From positions 1-64,000 of the forward strand of contig CAIRXW010000023.1 in the NCBI GenBank assembly GCA_903882665.1: DNA of 64,000 bases, written 5' to 3'. This DNA is from an uncultured Chlorobiaceae bacterium. Lineage in GTDB: Bacteria > Bacteroidota > Chlorobiia > Chlorobiales > Chlorobiaceae. The translations under genes were made by a program, and so were the position numbers. The notes under the pieces are model-generated. The model did not search any database. It had not been told where the DNA came from and saw nothing but the letters and a program-made list of their open reading frames with translations. Shown piece by piece: positions 6,451 through 14,046 of this stretch (positions are counted from its first letter, which is position 1; each line of letters opens with the position of its first letter).

Positions 6451-6584
6451 TGTTATTTGTGATTATTTGCGGTTTATTGTTGTTCCTGCAAATTCTCTCG
6501 GCTTTACTGAAAAAAGATAAACTCACCAACCAGGCATTGAAGAGATGTCGGTATGCTGAAATTTTACCCTGAACCGCAGTAAAC

Positions 6585-6712
6585 TTAATATATCAATGAT
6601 GGAGATATTTCTTCTACAGGCAGTGAAAAAGTAAAAATTGTATCCCCACCGGGCGAAGAGTCCACCGAAAGCGTACCATGATGTTTCTGCCATAGTCTCA
6701 TGTCCAGTGATA
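6585..6712 (-). pseudogene. Remnant of a histidine-kinase C-terminus
   Basis: The minus frame ending at the TAA at 6585-6587 encodes KHHGTLSVDSSPGGDTIFTF followed by SLPVEE. This closely matches the end of the intact kinase nearby ([25 protein letters not shown]). Upstream the similarity dissolves and the frame meets a TGA, so only the last part of the HATPase domain survives. It is probably the scar of a duplicated or deleted second kinase gene. Confidence 0.7.
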
Positions 6713-6815
6713 GTATATATTGCCGATTGAACCCCGTTCAGGATCGTTCAACTGCAGGCAAAGAATTTTTGCGCTTGAGAAAAAAAAGTCCGGATTGCGT
6801 TGGTGCCCTGAATGG

Positions 6816-7253
6816 TCAGTCAGCCGTCTGAAGCAGCTCCGCCAGTTCGGAACTTATGCGCATCGCTTTGCGGGCTGCTTCAAGAGCCGTGAGAGCCTCC
6901 TCTTCGTTAAAGAGTTCCCAGGGAAGCTGGTATGAGGACTCATTACCATATTTTGCCAGCATTTTTTCATGGGAGTCGTACTTTTCAAGCTCCGGCAGAA
7001 TCTCTTCAATCAATGCGGCAACCTCTTTGGTGACCGTCCCTTCCGTCATGAGCTGCGATAAATGTCGGGCAGGCTTGTGGGTCTGAGGAGAGACCCCAAA
7101 GAGCATCAGCACGGCAAGACCGCTATTTTCAAGAACAAGTATGGAGCCGGAAACACCGGCCCGCCAGCGCTTGAGGGAGTAATCCTGCTCCGCTTCATTC
7201 AAAAAGCCGCGCGCAAGTTCAAGACGATAGTCAACATCCTTGTGTAATCCCAT
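6816..7253 (-). CDS. HEPN-domain protein, function unknown
   Basis: The gene encodes 145 residues, predicted all-helical. The N-terminal part (DYRLELARGFLNEAEQDYSL) resembles HEPN helix 1, and a second conserved helix (RAGVSGSILVLENSGLAVL) and PQTHKPARHLSQL follow. HEPN proteins often bind nucleotides or RNA, and many form toxin-antitoxin pairs with a MNT nucleotidyltransferase. No nucleotidyltransferase is adjacent and the classical R-x4-6-H nuclease motif is not evident, so nuclease activity is doubtful. A strong Shine-Dalgarno sequence (AAAGGAGG) precedes the ATG at 7253, supporting real translation. It is the last gene on the minus strand after lptE, with a 108-bp gap. Confidence 0.7.
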   Translation of the reverse strand: MGLHKDVDYRLELARGFLNEAEQDYSLKRWRAGVSGSILVLENSGLAVLMLFGVSPQTHKPARHLSQLMTEGTVTKEVAALIEEILPELEKYDSHEKMLAKYGNESSYQLPWELFNEEEALTALEAARKAMRISSELAELLQTAD

Positions 7254-7361
7254 AACAACCTCCTTTTATGCTCCCTGCCTGCCGCAGGATTTACAATGAC
7301 AAATACAGAAAAAAAGATGAATCACCTGACGCATCATCAGCAATCAACCAGACCGGCAGTC

Positions 7362-7868
7362 TTACCATCCGGAAACAACCTGGTCGAAAATCTGATCGAC
7401 AATCTGGCCAACGCAATGCCGAAGTGCCTCTTGCTGGGCGTTGTAGTTGCCTGTTCGATAATCGGAAAATCCGACAAACGACTGGGCAAAGATTGGTGTT
7501 TTTTTCACCCGGTCAACCATTCTGACCTGCACAACAAGCGTCACCCGATTGGTCATGGCCCGCCCGGTTTTGCCGGAGAGCTGACTTGGTGCATCAGCAA
7601 AGGAGATAATAGTCCCTTCGAGCAGTGCATCGGCACGGGCCATGGAGGGCGTCAGGCGAAGTGCGCTTTGTGCTTCGATTTTGTTGGCAAGAGCGCTGGT
7701 AATTTCTCCCCTGAACTGCGCTATACCAGAACCGGAACGGTCTTCAAATACCGGGATTGCAATGGTTTTGAGGTGTGCAGGCAGCGATGATCCTGTAAAG
7801 CTGTAACAGCCCTGAAGTGTCGCCAGAACAAGAACAACAATGAATATGGATAGTGCGGGTTTCGGCAT
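7362..7868 (-). CDS. lptE: LptE-family LPS-assembly lipoprotein
   Basis: This 168-residue protein begins with a lipoprotein signal peptide: a hydrophobic core and the lipobox LQGC, with the acylated Cys near residue 21. The region TIAIPVFEDRSGSGIAQFRGEITSALANKI is characteristic of LptE-like proteins of the Bacteroidetes/Chlorobi group. In the outer membrane LptE plugs the LptD barrel and helps insert lipopolysaccharide. The gene starts 15 bp after the end of the upstream SDR gene, so it is probably translated from the same transcript as the RuBisCO-like cluster, although the functions appear unrelated. Confidence 0.85.
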   Translation of the reverse strand: MPKPALSIFIVVLVLATLQGCYSFTGSSLPAHLKTIAIPVFEDRSGSGIAQFRGEITSALANKIEAQSALRLTPSMARADALLEGTIISFADAPSQLSGKTGRAMTNRVTLVVQVRMVDRVKKTPIFAQSFVGFSDYRTGNYNAQQEALRHCVGQIVDQIFDQVVSGW

Positions 7869-7883
7869 GACGATCCTTCGGCG

Positions 7884-8708
7884 TTAATAGGTTCGACGAT
7901 CAATCCTCTTGGCTATTTTACGGAAGGGATAGGTCAAGAGCAACCATTTTTTTTTTCTTCCATTCAGTGCTGAACGGTAGATACCGGTTTTAGAGTCACT
8001 CCAGTCCGAAGCAAGTTGTACCGCAAGCTTTGCGGCAACCGAAGGCGGCTGGGCAAAAATATCAAGAACCGTGCTGAAGGTGGCCAACTGCCGGGAAAGT
8101 TCTGGCGTCGGGTTTTTGGTGCTGACCATACCGGTACGCACCAGACCAGGATGGAGAAGCATGACAGCGATACCGGTATGGCGGTACTCATGGGCAACCG
8201 CAGAGGTAAAACGGGCGATGGCCGCCTTGGTGGAGCCGTAGGCACTCATCCATGGGGTATTTGAGCCACTATCGGTACCGGAACCAGCCATATTGATGAT
8301 CTTTCCCGGAATGTTTTCCCTGAGAAAATAACTGATGGCTGCACGGCATCCGTTATAGGTGCCTTTAAGATTGGTATCAATAACCTTTCCCCACACGTCA
8401 GGATCGCTTTCTGTAATATTATGAAAGGGATCGGAGATGCCCGCGTTATTGATAAAACAGTCAATACGGCCAAATCTCTCAACGGACGAATCAATCAGGC
8501 GCTCCATATCGACCGTTGAGACAACATCGCAGAGGCAACCATAAGCGGTTTCGGGGGGAAATTCTGCAACAGCCTTTTGAACATTGGCTGCCGAGGAGGA
8601 GGTTATCACTACCTTTGCCCCCTGGCGCACAAACTCATGCGCGATGGCTTTACCGATACCTCTGGTGGATCCGGTAATGACAGCAACTTTATGGTCCAGT
8701 TTACCCAT
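7884..8708 (-). CDS. SDR-family NAD(P)-dependent oxidoreductase
   Basis: The protein has 274 residues and the classical short-chain dehydrogenase signatures: nucleotide-binding TGSTRGIGKAIA (about residues 13-24), NNAG, and the catalytic Ser plus YGSTK (Tyr-x3-Lys) near residues 155-160. After FVRQGAKVVITSS there is no acidic residue at the end of the second strand, which favours NADP(H). It follows the RuBisCO-like gene by 27 bp and precedes lptE by 15 bp, making it part of the cluster. It may oxidise or reduce an intermediate of the same pathway as the RuBisCO-like protein and the aldolases; the substrate is unknown. Confidence 0.9.
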   Translation of the reverse strand: MGKLDHKVAVITGSTRGIGKAIAHEFVRQGAKVVITSSSAANVQKAVAEFPPETAYGCLCDVVSTVDMERLIDSSVERFGRIDCFINNAGISDPFHNITESDPDVWGKVIDTNLKGTYNGCRAAISYFLRENIPGKIINMAGSGTDSGSNTPWMSAYGSTKAAIARFTSAVAHEYRHTGIAVMLLHPGLVRTGMVSTKNPTPELSRQLATFSTVLDIFAQPPSVAAKLAVQLASDWSDSKTGIYRSALNGRKKKWLLLTYPFRKIAKRIDRRTY

Positions 8709-8735
8709 GAGCCTACCTCTTCCTTTTACTGGTGC

Positions 8736-10037
8736 TTACTTTTTTCCGTTTGCCCCATCAACCATTACCTGAAGTTCAGCACGACCGACTGCATAACGTT
8801 CAAGTTCTATCCCCTGCTCGATGGCTTCCCATGCCTGGCGGATACTTGTCGCCCCGGCTTTGGGGCCCATGGGATGACCGAAAACCCCGCGACCAGGCAC
8901 AAAGCCAAAGTCAACACTGCCCACCTTGCGGTAGACCGTTTCAAGTGTCAGCGCTGAATCGCTTCCTCCCGGAACGGGAAGCGAGCGCTTGAGATGGCCA
9001 AAATCCTGCAGACACTCCGCGATATTGGCTTTTACCTCCTCTTCAGGGGTCATCATCCTGCTTCCGAAGCCGGGCATGATGATCGAATCAAGACCTGCAA
9101 GCCGCTGAAGCTTGGTCATTACCCGTGAATGAACGCCATACTTCTCCATCCTGCTGAAAGCGGCTATAAAGGGGAAGTGACCAATCAGAGGCACTTTCGT
9201 GTGTCGGGCAAGCATTCTGACTGCACTGAGCCCAATCGGGAAGGCATTGACGAGCAGCGCATTTGCCCCGTTACTGACGGCAATGTCGTGCTGCTCAAGG
9301 AGCCGGTCAACCTCATCGGTGATGTTGGCAAGATAGATTTTCGGCTCACCGGTCTCCCTTTCTGCCCGAACTCGGGCTTCTCCGAGCACGCGGGATCGTT
9401 CGATAAGGGTTGACCAGTCAACATCGGCAAGCATTTCGTCATCTTTGGCGATATCAAGCCCGCCGAGCCAGCTCTGGTAAGCGATTTCGGCAAATTGGGC
9501 TGGAGTAAGACCGATATTGGGCTTTACCACCCCGAAAAAAATCGGGCGGTTATAGGCCTGCAGGAGGTCGCGAATACCATCAATACCGAATTTCGGGCCA
9601 TCAAAGGCCTTGAGATAAGAGTCCGGAAAGCCGATATCAAGCAGCTTGACCACTGGTATGCCTGGAGTAAAAAAAACGCCCTCCCCGCAAACCGCAGAGA
9701 GCAGATTGGGCAGTTTTGTGCCAAAATTGCAGTGAGGATGTGCAATAGTGACACGGCAGGCATGAACAGGGCCGGATTCAAAATGCTGCACCGGATAGCT
9801 GAGCGCCGCAAGCTCTCCCTCTACCGTCAGGCTGATCACCTTGGCGGCATACCTGGGGCGAAAATCTTCATCCTGATCAACACGTTTCCACTGTGCCGTC
9901 GATTGTTCACTGCAGAAATGGGCAAGCGCGGTCTCAATATCTCCAACACACTCCAGATAGTAGTCAAGCGTCAGATAGTCAGCCATGTCGAGCTGCTCTT
10001 TTGAAGCAAAAAAACCTCTTATATCCTCACTGTTCAT
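8736..10037 (-). CDS. RuBisCO-like protein (form IV RLP)
   Basis: This 433-residue protein follows the RuBisCO large-subunit layout: N-terminal domain, then a TIM barrel. Lys172 (VVKPNIG) aligns with the catalytic K175, and the metal-site segment AKDDEM keeps the carbamylatable Lys198, Asp200 and Glu201. Other positions diverge: the second active-site lysine of the KPK motif is Asn, and loop 6 reads [14 protein letters not shown] without the K334 that stabilises CO2 fixation. It therefore should not fix CO2. Family knowledge: the green-sulfur-bacterial RLP is needed for normal sulfur oxidation and stress tolerance, but its reaction is unresolved, whereas some other RLPs act as enolases or isomerases in methionine salvage. 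A strong hairpin lies 25-43 bp before the ATG. Confidence 0.95.
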
Positions 10038-10061
10038 AGAATAACATCATACCCCCCCACT

Positions 10062-10080
10062 CTTCCGGCCTGGCCGGAAG
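10062..10080 (-). promoter_or_regulatory. Hairpin in the leader of the RuBisCO-like gene
   Basis: A perfect 9-bp inverted repeat (CTTCCGGCC / GGCCGGAAG) is separated by a single base and flanked by C-rich and G-rich runs that could extend pairing (CCCC at 10052-10057, GGGG at 10088-10091). It sits between the LsrF-like gene and the RLP start and has no T-tract on the minus strand. It could therefore stabilise or process the mRNA or attenuate translation rather than terminate transcription. A one-base loop cannot form as such, so the innermost pairs must open, or a protein may bind the DNA palindrome. Confidence 0.55.
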
Positions 10081-10179
10081 GAGCCGAGGGGTGCCCATTA
10101 AGAAAATCGAACTCTTTTAAATAATACCGCAGCAGGCCACGTAAACCGGCTGCAGTCGAAGTATTTCACCCGTCAAGAA

Positions 10180-11061
10180 TTACCCTTCAGCCTTGATGGT
10201 ATTGAAATAATCAAAGGCATCCTCGGCACTCACGCCCTCATGCACCACTTTGTTGACAGCCTTCATCATGGCAAGCGGAGCATCGCTCTGGAAAATATTG
10301 CGCCCCATATCAACACCTGATGCGCCTTCATCAATAGCTTTGCGGGACATTGCAAGGGCTTCGAGCTCGGGAAGTTTTTTGCCACCAGCCATGACAATAG
10401 GCACCGGACACGACGCGACAATAGTATTGAAATCTTCAGGCACATAATAGGTCTTGACAATCTGCGCGCCAAGCTCGGCAGCCATCCGGCAGGCAAGCCT
10501 GAAGTATTTGGCATCGCGTACCATATCCTTGCCGACTGCGGTCACCGCCATGGTTGGAATACCGTAACGCAGACCCATATCAACAAGCCTTGTCATGTTG
10601 TGGATGGAGCGGGTCTCATATTCGCCACCGATGAAGATCTGCAGGGTTATTGCGGCAACGTTCATACGGATGGCATCCTCGATATCGACGGCAAGCTCTT
10701 CGTCGGAAAGCTCCTTGAGAATGCTCGGGCCACCGCTGCAGCGCATCACAACCGCCCTGGTAAGGCTTGGCGGAACGGTGGTTCGCAAAATACCACGGGT
10801 CAGCATAATGGCATCGGCGTAAGGCATGAGCGGAACGATGTTGACATCCGGACGTTCAAGACCGGTGGTCGGTCCCTGAAAGTAGCCATGATCGATAGCA
10901 AGCATGACGGTTTTTCCGGTGTCGGGCCTGAATATCCTCGACAGGCGGTTTTTCATTCCCCAATCAAGGGAGTGGGCGCCTTTAAGAAAAAATCCGTGTG
11001 TGTTGACCGGAGTGTCGAGATAGTACTCTTTTGCCTGTTTGTCTTTATCGTATTCTGCCAT
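10180..11061 (-). CDS. LsrF/DhnA-type class I aldolase (3-hydroxy-5-phosphonooxypentane-2,4-dione thiolase-like)
   Basis: The 293-residue TIM-barrel protein closely resembles the AI-2 degradation enzyme LsrF along its whole length: [52 protein letters not shown] with the Schiff-base lysine near 217, [15 protein letters not shown] and [15 protein letters not shown]. LsrF splits phospho-AI-2-derived 3-hydroxy-5-phosphooxypentane-2,4-dione with CoA to DHAP and acetyl-CoA. No other lsr gene (kinase, transporter, repressor) is present; instead it lies between the RLP gene and a bifunctional aldolase/dehydrogenase. It probably handles a related branched or keto pentose phosphate; that substrate is inference. 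The spacing to its neighbours (58 bp and 142 bp) fits one transcript. Confidence 0.9.
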
Positions 11062-11119
11062 GATGGTTGCTCTCCGCTTTTTCGATTATGATTGTTATTA
11101 TGGATAGACTCTCTTTCGT

Positions 11120-13237
11120 TCAGCGAAGCGCGGCTGCAATGTTGCCGCCATCCACTGTGGTAATTGAACCGGTTGTCCTGATTTCGAGCGCAAGATGGAC
11201 AAAGGCATCTGCGACATCTTCGGCGGTCACCTCAAGCTGCAAGAGGTTTCCGGCCATGTACTCTTTTTCACTCAGGCCGCGGGCTGTTGATCGGGCCTTG
11301 ATCATCTCTTCGGTCAAGAGGCCGCTGCGAATGCGGTCGGCATTGATTCCGTTTGAGCGAATGCCGTCACGTCCGTGGTCAAGGGCATATTGGCGCATAA
11401 GAAAAAGCGTCGCCGCCTTGGCCAGACCATAAGGGCCAAAGTCCGGACCGGGATTGACCGCCTGTTTTGAAACGTTGAAAAGCAGAACACCGCCGGTTCC
11501 CTGGAGCTTCATCACCCTGACCGCCTCCTGGGCAATGGACTGGTGTGAAAAAAAGTTGATTTCAAAGCTCTTGCGCAATAGATCGTCGGAAACGTCACCA
11601 ATGCGCCCCTGTATGGCTGCGCCGACGTTGGAGACGATAATGTCTACACCACCGAAGCGGCGGCAGGCAGCGTCAAAAGCGGCGCGGATATCACCCCTTG
11701 AGGTGACGTCGCAGGTGAGGGCAAGAAGGTTGCCGCCAAGCTCCTCCGATGCACGATCGAGTGCTTCACGGGTCAGATCCAGAATGACCAACTCAGCCCC
11801 TTTCTGGCGGAAAGCTTTGGCCGTGGCAAGGCCTATACCGCTTGCGGCTCCTGTAACGAGAACAATTTTACCGGCAAAAACATCATGATGGACCTTGGTC
11901 ATCTTGGCCTGCTCCATGTCCCAGTACTCTATCTCAAAGGCCTCCCGGTCACTGATGGATTCAAAGGTACCCACCGATTCGGCATCAAGGATAGCCGAGG
12001 CGGTACCTGTTGCAATGTCGGCGTTGACTGCGGCTGATTCTGCCGTTTTACCAAGACCGAAAAGCCCGAGGCCGGGAACAAGCACCACTCTTGGCAAGGG
12101 GTCGAGCATGGTTACCGGCATGTTGGCAGCCTGCTGCTGTGTAGTAAAATAGTCGATATACTCCTGACGGTAGTGCTGTACGGCCTCATGCACAGCAGCC
12201 TTGAATCCCTCAATATCAGCCGCATCGGGAGCAGGAACAACAAGCGGCTTGTTTTTTGTGCGGATAATGAAGTCGGGCGTCATGGCGCCCCTTTGACTTA
12301 TGCAGGAAAGATCAACGCTGTTAACATAGTCAAGAATAGCGGATGAAGTACGAAAATCAAGAATAAACTGATGGTACTCGCGCATACCGAAAGCCTTTTC
12401 ATCAACACAGGCGCCCCTGATGACGGGAGCCGTCACTTCAACCGAAGCAATTTCGGCTGGCAGCGTTACCGATGGAAAAATTTTTCTGCCCGCTTTGGCT
12501 ATCCGCTCTTCAAGTATGTTGACAGCCTCTATCATGCGCCGGTAGCCCTCACTGGCTGTTGAGCCGAAAGTGACCAGACCGTGCTTTTGAAGCACAAGTC
12601 CCTTGATTTCCGGATTTTCTTCATAAACGATAGCTGCTGCACGTGCAAGGCCAAGGCCAGGCTTTATATAGGGCACAGAACCAAAACCCTCACCAAGGGT
12701 TTCACCAACGAGAGCGACGCCATCGGGCTGATTGCTGAGGGTGAGCAAGGCGAACGAATGGGTGTGAAAAATAAAACGGTGTGGTAAAAAGGCGTGCAGG
12801 AGGGTCTCAATCGAAGGAGTAAGCCGGTGCTCGTCCATGTGGTCAGTCAAGCTGAACATGTTCAGAAGCAGAAGGTGTTTGAACTCTTTGGTCGAAAAAC
12901 GCCGAAGAGCCTCTTCGCTTACCTGATCGTTGCGGCTGAAGAGTTCTCCCAGTTTGCGTAGTGGGCCAAGCCGGAGGGGCGTGTAATCACACCCTGAAAC
13001 GCGGCTCAAATCGACGCCGCTTGCCTTGATCAGCAGGACATCAGCCCGGTTGCCAACCAGATCAACCAGTTCGCATTTGACTGAGGTGTTACCGCCGCCA
13101 TGCATCACCAGCGAGCTTTCGCGGCCAAGCAGACGGGAGGCATAGACCAGCTCGGCAAGTTCCGGCTGCATTTCGGTTGAACTGCACTGCTCTCTGAGAG
13201 AGCATTGAAGATCTGCGTCATTCCAAAGGTTCTGCAT
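11120..13237 (-). CDS. Bifunctional class II aldolase / short-chain dehydrogenase
   Basis: The 705-residue protein is a fusion. Residues about 20-270 form a class II aldolase/adducin domain, with zinc-ligand-type segments FHTHSFALLTL and LQKHGLVTFG. Residues about 455-705 form an SDR domain with the nucleotide loop VTGAASGIGLATAKAF and the catalytic motif YGLAK. The middle region is the linker typical of the RhaD/YuxG family. Relatives cleave rhamnulose-1-phosphate to DHAP and lactaldehyde and oxidise the aldehyde to lactate. No rhamnose kinase, isomerase or transporter is present here, so the natural substrate may be another deoxy-sugar phosphate, for example one from nucleoside or methylthioadenosine salvage. 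Its place beside the LsrF-like and RuBisCO-like genes supports a joint pathway. Confidence 0.92.
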   Translation of the reverse strand: MQNLWNDADLQCSLREQCSSTEMQPELAELVYASRLLGRESSLVMHGGGNTSVKCELVDLVGNRADVLLIKASGVDLSRVSGCDYTPLRLGPLRKLGELFSRNDQVSEEALRRFSTKEFKHLLLLNMFSLTDHMDEHRLTPSIETLLHAFLPHRFIFHTHSFALLTLSNQPDGVALVGETLGEGFGSVPYIKPGLGLARAAAIVYEENPEIKGLVLQKHGLVTFGSTASEGYRRMIEAVNILEERIAKAGRKIFPSVTLPAEIASVEVTAPVIRGACVDEKAFGMREYHQFILDFRTSSAILDYVNSVDLSCISQRGAMTPDFIIRTKNKPLVVPAPDAADIEGFKAAVHEAVQHYRQEYIDYFTTQQQAANMPVTMLDPLPRVVLVPGLGLFGLGKTAESAAVNADIATGTASAILDAESVGTFESISDREAFEIEYWDMEQAKMTKVHHDVFAGKIVLVTGAASGIGLATAKAFRQKGAELVILDLTREALDRASEELGGNLLALTCDVTSRGDIRAAFDAACRRFGGVDIIVSNVGAAIQGRIGDVSDDLLRKSFEINFFSHQSIAQEAVRVMKLQGTGGVLLFNVSKQAVNPGPDFGPYGLAKAATLFLMRQYALDHGRDGIRSNGINADRIRSGLLTEEMIKARSTARGLSEKEYMAGNLLQLEVTAEDVADAFVHLALEIRTTGSITTVDGGNIAAALR

Positions 13238-13315
13238 AAGAGATGATACTTCTCACACCCGAAATGCGGCGTGTATTGTTGAAAAATAACGATAGCAAAA
13301 AATCAACTCACCGGT

Positions 13316-13540
13316 TCATGCCCTGCCTTTTTTTTTCTTTTCATGCCACCCTTCAATCAAAAAGCCGGAACCGTAGATAAGCAGAAAGCCGGGAATCACA
13401 GCTCCAAGAAAAGAGAGTTTATCATCAATGGAGAGTAACTGGCCTGAAGACCAGATCATCCAGACAAGCAGGAACCAGATCGGCCCTACAAAAAGAAAAG
13501 TGGTATTCCAGAGTCTCTTGAAACTGTGTTGCATGACCAT
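13316..13540 (-). CDS. Small two-helix membrane protein, unknown function
   Basis: This 74-residue protein has two hydrophobic helices (about residues 14-31 and 42-62) and a strongly basic C-terminus (HEKKKKGRA), which suggests both ends face the cytoplasm. It lies 32 bp after bchV and 78 bp before the aldolase fusion on the same strand. An ATG at 13534 is an alternative start. No family was recognised. Its fixed position between bchV and the aldolase suggests it is a real gene, perhaps helping the membrane-bound hydratase. Confidence 0.65.
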   Translation of the reverse strand: MVMQHSFKRLWNTTFLFVGPIWFLLVWMIWSSGQLLSIDDKLSFLGAVIPGFLLIYGSGFLIEGWHEKKKKGRA

Positions 13541-13572
13541 TAAAGTATCTTAAAAAGAAGTGTTACCCGCCG

Positions 13573-14046
13573 TCAGATTTGGCCGTCAATGCGAAGCTTG
13601 CGTTCATTGCGTTTTTCAAGAATGATCCTGACCAGGTACTGCATCGCATTGAGCACGTAGGTGAAATAGGCAAGAAAGGCATCAATGATCAACACATCTC
13701 TGGAGGCTCCGACGTAAGCCAGAAAAAAATAGAGCAGGTGAAAAAATGCAGCAATGGTGCTGCCAATATCTTCCCACAAAAACTCTTTTGAGTAGACCCA
13801 TTTATTGAAAATTTCCTTTTCAAAAAACATGCCTGTAATGAAAAGAAGGGCAAAAAAAAGCGTCTTGAAGAGAATGGCGACGCTTACCCAGTATAAACTG
13901 GTAACAAACAGGGAGTTTGTATAAAGCGCTGTTGTGGTAAGACCAACAACAAAAAACATGAACTGGATGGGAGCAAGGATAATCTGGATATCGGTCCAGA
14001 TGGAAGCGTTTCTTTTGACAAGCTGTTCGGGGGTATAACGAGCCAT
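13573..14046 (-). CDS. bchV: 3-vinyl bacteriochlorophyllide hydratase (BchF/BchV family)
   Basis: The 157-residue membrane protein has four hydrophobic helices and the BchF-family signature near the N-terminus ([19 protein letters not shown], then LAPIQF). Conserved blocks [19 protein letters not shown] and [12 protein letters not shown] follow. BchF/BchV adds water to the C-3 vinyl group during synthesis of bacteriochlorophylls c, d and e, the chlorosome pigments. Green sulfur bacteria have two paralogues, and the one near the RuBisCO-like gene is BchV, which acts on highly methylated pigment precursors and influences the stereochemistry at C-3(1). The BchV assignment rests on this position; family membership rests on sequence. 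It is the first gene of the minus-strand cluster. Confidence 0.88.

Follow-up and report, generated by a model that had tools for sequence, protein, structure and literature searches.

A gene cluster on the minus strand of a 64,000-nucleotide stretch of DNA from an uncultured Chlorobiaceae bacterium (the window) combines a RuBisCO-like protein (RLP), an LsrF-type thiolase homologue and a fusion of a class II aldolase with a short-chain dehydrogenase (SDR), termed FUS here. With a probability of about 0.42, the cluster serves to salvage sugar phosphate derived from 5'-deoxyadenosine, or possibly methylthioadenosine (MTA), left as waste by the radical S-adenosylmethionine (radical-SAM) steps of bacteriochlorophyll (BChl) synthesis, whereby FUS and LsrF would yield dihydroxyacetone phosphate (DHAP) and acetyl-CoA, and RLP together with YjbQ, a UPF0047 protein encoded on another contig, would yield 1-deoxyxylulose-5-phosphate (DXP). 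FUS-LsrF on the one side and RLP on the other are separable modules.

FUS (11120-13237; NF006193, 1359 bits against a cut-off of 1213) carries an aldolase domain and an SDR domain with the Asp of NAD-type enzymes, LsrF (10180-11061) is a homologue of 3-hydroxy-5-phosphonooxypentane-2,4-dione (P-HPD) thiolase (equivalog NF006081, 509 bits against 297) that aligns with LsrF structures in the PDB over 286 amino acids (aa), and RLP (8736-10037) belongs to the IV-Photo clade (E ~1e-228 to 1tel/1ykw, 6e-200 to 2qyg). Among 98 genomes of the class (labelled G, with family groups that include f1, f3 and f4), RLP occurs in 82, LsrF in 79 and FUS in 78. Of the 78 genomes having both RLP and LsrF, 77 have them side by side; LsrF and FUS are neighbours in 76 of 78, both misses (G074 and G077) having the genes on different contigs. 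Since the same order recurs across the class, it is not a product of chance, and the co-conservation across Chlorobi genomes foreseen in an earlier note on this DNA (the original prediction) is borne out. One RLP match (G024:C47:198792-200091) falls into two overlapping pieces with an internal stop, as a pseudogene or an assembly error.

The separability of the two halves is evident from G087, which has FUS and LsrF on one contig and YjbQ and RLP on another, from G086, which has RLP while FUS and LsrF occur nowhere in the genome, and from G026 and G048, which harbor a second FUS-LsrF pair without RLP. A scan of species genomes returned 218 RLP loci (labelled L), of which the best 80 were analysed: 28 from Chlorobiaceae, a second collection overlapping the 98-genome set, and 52 from Alpha- and Gammaproteobacteria, Gemmatimonadota and one Chloroherpetonaceae, many of them close kin such as a dozen Rhodopseudomonas. 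No match to LsrF or to bchV, the gene heading the cluster in the window, was found in the sequence surrounding the 52 (E 1e-5), and the only FUS-like stretch is weak (29%, ~7 kb away, in L065). The evidence thus speaks against RLP as an obligatory step together with FUS and LsrF, and the linear pathway of the original prediction, in which the three act in one fixed sequence, is partly supported: a role in pentulose-phosphate metabolism stands in kind, whereas the obligatory membership of RLP does not.

The second pair of G026 (L124, ~6492-11735 on G026:C21) lies in a BChl e-type pigment cluster, next to a radical-SAM gene (variant family NF045502), a relative of TM74 (a 74-aa membrane protein of the window cluster), a bchF-type gene, an FrhB-type gene and an SDR gene; one more protein of the locus weakly matches the geranylgeranyl-reductase family. 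This neighbourhood fits the BChl e cluster with bciD, cruB and bchF2 described in the consulted part of PMC3613366, and from that description and its location the 401-aa radical-SAM protein, which found no match in a PDB search, is labelled BciD-like. The TM74 relative in the pigment cluster has 98 aa and 32% identity. The second pair of G048 (L125, 6414-11187 on G048:C4) lies on a contig that stops past a TM74-like gene. The second FUS copies of the two genomes are sister to the sequence of G041 (100/100) and stand apart from the first copies of their own genomes, a placement indicative of horizontal transfer; the tree of LsrF has less resolution, and the second FUS-LsrF pair was apparently acquired horizontally.

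The recurrent partner of RLP is YjbQ. In all 51 non-Chlorobiaceae loci with upstream DNA (best 80 of 218), its gene precedes RLP on the same strand, the contig of the remaining locus, L081, beginning at RLP itself; the distance is ~1.3 kb in L086 and at most 200 bp in the other loci. The YjbQ of the source genome is encoded on a separate contig, is 66% identical to the Chloroherpetonaceae copy and sits between an alpha-amylase-like gene and dxs (DXP synthase), an order that is the same in the other Chlorobiaceae loci inspected. Chlorobiaceae YjbQ falls inside the RLP-linked clade, beside the copy of G086 (93/91) and far from a second paralogue. Amylase-like genes are also found elsewhere: one of 1210-1240 aa adjoins RLP in Chloroherpetonaceae (L072, L127, L128), and a related one of 489 aa (26% identity, E 1e-37) adjoins YjbQ in Chlorobium (L130, 6587-8056). 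A plasmid search with RLP gave 300 records, one of them, H26 of Candidatus Thiodictyon syntrophicum, at 60-80% identity and with a YjbQ annotated under the match; the 246 records obtained with FUS all stay under 60% identity, and LsrF gave 19. Literature searches for RLP or RuBisCO with YjbQ/UPF0047, for LsrF with Chlorobi, and for the locus tags CT1772-CT1775, found nothing relevant, which does not establish absence from print.

The proposed pathway would begin with 5'-deoxyadenosine from the radical-SAM steps of anaerobic BChl synthesis (BchE and others), which purine nucleoside phosphorylase (PNP) and MtnA, encoded elsewhere and with predicted activities, would convert to 5-deoxyribulose-1-phosphate. 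MtnA scores above its cut-off in 92 of the 98 genomes, and on another contig of the source genome a PNP gene (NF006054, 386 against 218) ends 15 bp before mtnA, in agreement with the earlier expectation that the substrate is supplied from elsewhere. A class II aldolase is found in 89 of the 98 genomes, and the nine without any also lack FUS. FUS is the sole class II aldolase of the source genome (one PF00596 match) and of 76 genomes among the 78 with FUS, G026 and G048 being the exceptions with two FUS copies, while G086 and the ten f3/f4 genomes have one stand-alone aldolase each; the two forms never occur together, as if FUS filled the step after MtnA in a one-for-one replacement. Two stand-alone aldolases were scanned and resemble fuculose- or ribulose-1-phosphate aldolases, all scores being below cut-off (MtnB model, 68 and 76 against 137). 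FUS itself passes as a member of the general fusion family and falls short of the rhamnulose-1-phosphate aldolase/dehydrogenase model (TIGR02632, 441 against 568); nothing rhamnose-specific is found among the eight proteins scanned with profiles (those between 5815 and 14046), and rhamnose catabolism is disfavoured.

Related aldolase-SDR fusions oxidise lactaldehyde, and the aldolase domain of FUS could cleave 5-deoxyribulose-1-phosphate directly to DHAP and acetaldehyde. In a plain DHAP shunt, this domain would cut methylthio- and 5-deoxyribulose-1-phosphate to DHAP and an aldehyde, which the SDR domain would then reduce or oxidise, and LsrF and RLP would work in other reactions that are only co-regulated; we consider this reading rather unlikely. 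In its favour, one type of class II aldolase per genome accompanies MtnA, and the aldolase residues checked in FUS, whose aldolase activity is a prediction, are intact in 25 of 25 sequences; such shunts are known for both substrates (PMC10986504, PMC6079011, each consulted in part). It leaves unexplained that FUS adjoins LsrF in 76 of 78 genomes, with RLP elsewhere in the case of G087, that the extra pairs of G026 and G048 show the same adjacency, and that the LsrF substrate requires a pentulose phosphate that is oxidised and uncleaved. The salvage of 5-deoxyribose by DrdKIA likewise relies on MtnA and one class II aldolase and on the same sugar phosphate, whereas here the aldolase shares a polypeptide with an SDR domain and is accompanied by a thiolase, PNP precedes mtnA, and the proposed product is acetyl-CoA rather than acetaldehyde or ethanol.

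For the salvage of 5-deoxyribulose-1-phosphate through LsrF, the SDR domain of FUS, or the second SDR of the cluster (SDR2), would oxidise the C4 hydroxyl. On structural reasoning, the product, CH2OP-CO-CHOH-CO-CH3, would be identical with P-HPD, which the LsrF model gives as substrate; C4 oxidation of DXP would also give P-HPD. LsrF enzymes yield DHAP and acetyl-CoA, the products named in the original prediction, and LsrF would thus split P-HPD with CoA to these two compounds; the 5-deoxy or methylthio pentulose phosphate suggested there as shared substrate is chemically consistent. LsrF takes part in the degradation of autoinducer-2 (AI-2) by the lsr operon, and a highly improbable reading has LsrF and RLP act on AI-2-type dione phosphates that come from neighbouring cells or from chemistry, with RLP performing the ketol isomerisation of LsrG. 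The conversion of phospho-4,5-dihydroxy-2,3-pentanedione (P-DPD) to P-HPD is indeed an enolisation-type ketol shift, and LsrF scores far above its equivalog cut-off. Yet LuxS is found in none of the 98 genomes and in 5 of 14 controls, so that LsrF is not fed by LuxS-made AI-2, and no lsr transporter, LsrK or LsrG is found among the eight scanned proteins; nor is there an LsrF near RLP in the surroundings of the 52 non-Chlorobiaceae loci. AI-2 degradation is accordingly disfavoured as the main role, and another origin of P-HPD is proposed.

RLP is the sole RuBisCO-family match in the source genome and reaches the cut-off of none of the six RuBisCO-family models listed. It scores 764 bits to 1tel/1ykw (C. 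tepidum RLP), 668 bits to 2qyg (R. palustris RLP2) and 178 bits to the next PDB chain; identity to the 2qyg stretch is 68%. Residues R295 and K334 (RuBisCO numbering) are lost in all 80 loci and K175, K201, D203, E204 and H294 retained, the pattern of the IV-Photo clade; in the window, F288 and R327 stand at the lost positions and N174 replaces K177, with an approximate mapping of loop 6. A role of the MtnW type is disfavoured (157 bits against 514). The DeepYkr RLPs of R. rubrum and R. palustris carry out a 1,3-isomerisation of a methylthio sugar (consulted parts of PMC4958253 and PMC5893883), and, like the R. rubrum enzyme, RLP with YjbQ as partner would perform such a reaction on 5-deoxyribulose-1-phosphate, which on structural reasoning would give a 1-deoxypentulose-5-phosphate, and DXP if it is the xylo epimer. 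DXP would then serve as isoprenoid precursor for pigment tails and carotenoids. The MTA-isoprenoid shunt of R. rubrum, with its DeepYkr RLP and a cupin, is similar in that RLP is fed by MtnA and turns a pentulose-1-phosphate into a DXP-type sugar (PMC4958253, consulted in part), and in that isoprenoid genes lie near Photo RLP in some lineages. It differs in that the RLP of the window is of the Photo and not the DeepYkr clade, has YjbQ as partner and would act on a substrate without a methylthio group, so that no methanethiol would be released; none of the eight scanned proteins, the only part of the genome searched for it, is the cupin MTXu-5-P methylsulfurylase.

As to these isoprenoid neighbours, idi (isopentenyl-diphosphate isomerase) is found near RLP in 7 of the 52 non-Chlorobiaceae loci (best 80 of 218), directly downstream in L063, L066, L090 and L096 and within ~7 kb in L059, L097 and L104, against a rough expectation of ~0.2-0.3 loci for a single-copy gene if loci are independent; the two idi genes tested score above curated cut-offs. 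In Rhodomicrobium L054, dxs lies 0.8 kb upstream of YjbQ-RLP with one gene between, a case that may be chance because the relative L051 has no dxs near RLP. Behind YjbQ-RLP in Allochromatium, idi is followed by a gene for lipoyl synthase, which is also a radical-SAM enzyme (L090, 11965-12939; L096, 11984-12955).

BchE is a radical-SAM enzyme and hence a producer of 5'-deoxyadenosine. Full-length BchE scores above cut-off in 76 of the 98 genomes of the class and in none of the 14 controls; the misses are 12 f1 genomes and all 10 f3/f4 genomes, and the same 10 lack RLP and YjbQ too, at least one of them, G097, having a bchF-type gene 58% identical to bchV. Within the class, BchE accompanies RLP in 70 of 82 genomes and occurs without RLP in 6, and outside Chlorobiaceae it is found in 44 of the 50 RLP genomes tested (L032 and L072 lay outside the test), the six misses all being metagenome-assembled genomes (L037, L056, L061, L065, L081, L088). 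The surroundings of RLP in the 52 non-Chlorobiaceae loci contain no match to BchE. The pattern within the class is close to a single evolutionary contrast.

Several observations weigh against a salvage pathway for 5'-deoxyadenosine. The co-occurrence of BchE and RLP, consistent with the model, is confounded with anaerobic phototrophy, and of the 12 RLP genomes of the class without BchE above cut-off, mostly fragmentary, three are nearly or fully complete (G011, 100%; G069, 98%; G039, 96%). G050, 99% complete, has BchE, YjbQ and MtnA and lacks RLP, LsrF and FUS. The two modules may belong to different pathways, since G086 has RLP with neither FUS nor LsrF and the 52 loci lack both in the vicinity of RLP, and if FUS cleaves the sugar itself, LsrF would be left without an obvious job. 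On the supply side, no curated MTA phosphorylase scores above cut-off in any of the 98 genomes, and the scores of the PNP beside mtnA mark it as an ordinary inosine/guanosine enzyme, so that the route would also require a deaminase, a type of enzyme outside the searches made. YjbQ proteins are common (found in 10 of 14 control genomes), so that only the adjacency to RLP is informative, and the neighbourhood of yjbQ and dxs may go back to a single event within one family. The loci with idi represent about three or four lineages, and at four of the seven (L063, L066, L090, L096) pufLM, as read from the sequence, lies upstream, so that the idi signal is in part one of photosynthesis-cluster membership.

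Published work on Photo-clade RLPs adds to these points. In the parts of PMC5893883 consulted, R. palustris RLP2 shows little turnover of methylthioribulose-1-phosphate, its deletion has no MTA or sulfur phenotype, its specific function is left open with a call for more work, and the RLP mutant of C. tepidum is described, by citation, as affected in sulfur oxidation and stress. A test of a 5-deoxy sugar on RLP2 was not seen in those parts, and the string '5-deoxy' is absent from the main text, which primed spellings could escape. The RLPs treated there, of the same family as that of the window, are discussed in the same parts without mention of a YjbQ or idi partner. The C. tepidum phenotype favours a role of RLP in sulfur metabolism or stress, with the cluster linked to sulfur through, for example, recovery of MTA sulfur or redox protection, as do the wide occurrence of MtnA and an SQR-like gene (below cut-off) upstream of YjbQ-RLP in six Ectothiorhodospira loci (L067, L068, L070, L071, L073 and L092, around 7200-9000), which a sulfur reading predicts. 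We regard such a role as unlikely, given the absence of a sulfur phenotype in R. palustris, the lack of MTA phosphorylase scores above cut-off, and the neighbours of RLP, of which the recurrent one is YjbQ and other repeated ones include idi and pufLM.

The wider layout of the locus (named by window coordinates) bears on whether the genes belong together at all. From 14046 down to 7884, on the minus strand and in one direction, follow bchV, TM74, FUS, LsrF, RLP and SDR2, with gaps of 32, 78, 58, 142 and 27 bp; the six genes and the families assigned to them in the original prediction agree with the sequence, the profile scores and the PDB matches. bchV (13573-14046), which heads the series, encodes a 3-vinyl bacteriochlorophyllide hydratase of the bchV/bchF family (TIGR02020, 192 bits against 101; PF07284), TM74 (13316-13540) has two hydrophobic stretches and is kept between bchV and FUS, and SDR2 (7884-8708; PF00106, 164 bits) is predicted to be of NADP(H) type. 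An LptE-like gene (7362-7868) lies 15 bp beyond SDR2 on the same strand, and further downstream, also on that strand, is a HEPN-domain protein (6816-7253; PF05168, 27 bits). Promoter-like matches are at chance level (6 found, 6.6 expected), and terminator-like matches number 11 against 8.0 expected; from spacing and conservation only, the genes from bchV to SDR2 are probably co-transcribed.

SDR2 and LptE follow RLP in all 28 Chlorobiaceae loci of the second collection, FUS is present in 26 and bchV with TM74 in 25, every miss being a contig end. LptE is clearly unrelated, and this, together with the separability of FUS-LsrF from RLP, would suit a reading without any shared pathway, in which the genes hitch-hike behind bchV and their conservation reflects a generally stable gene order in Chlorobiaceae. 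It is very unlikely, as FUS and LsrF remain a pair in G087, where the 10.7 kb examined contains no match to bchV, moved jointly in the apparent horizontal transfer, and retain their checked catalytic residues. Counted over loci with sufficiently long alignments, RLP keeps K172, K198, D200, E201 and H287 in 80 of 80, LsrF keeps Lys203, the catalytic lysine, in 26 of 26, FUS is invariant in 25 of 25 at the checked metal His, acid Glu, phosphate loop, SDR Ser/Tyr/Lys and Asp487, and SDR2 keeps Ser/Tyr/Lys in 28 of 28. The catalytic status of these residues in RLP, LsrF and FUS is presumed from their families.

What is added to the original prediction is the YjbQ partner, the isoprenoid neighbours, the link to radical-SAM enzymes and BChl, the aldolase replacement and the identity of the LsrF substrate with oxidised 5-deoxyribulose-1-phosphate. 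It is possible, if doubtful, that Photo-clade RLP and YjbQ together form a 5'-deoxyadenosine-to-isoprenoid shunt of anaerobic phototrophs, with YjbQ as an accessory (for example an epimerase of 1-deoxy-pentulose-5-phosphate) and with FUS and LsrF of Chlorobiaceae draining the surplus via P-HPD to DHAP and acetyl-CoA. The YjbQ partner, the isoprenoid context, the supply route and a single substrate make the reaction of Photo-clade RLPs, for which structures and mutants exist, testable. If the proposal is true, it would reveal by what route anaerobic phototrophs remove the 5'-deoxyadenosine that arises in pigment synthesis, LsrF would gain a role apart from quorum sensing, and the widespread YjbQ/UPF0047 family would have a cellular role.

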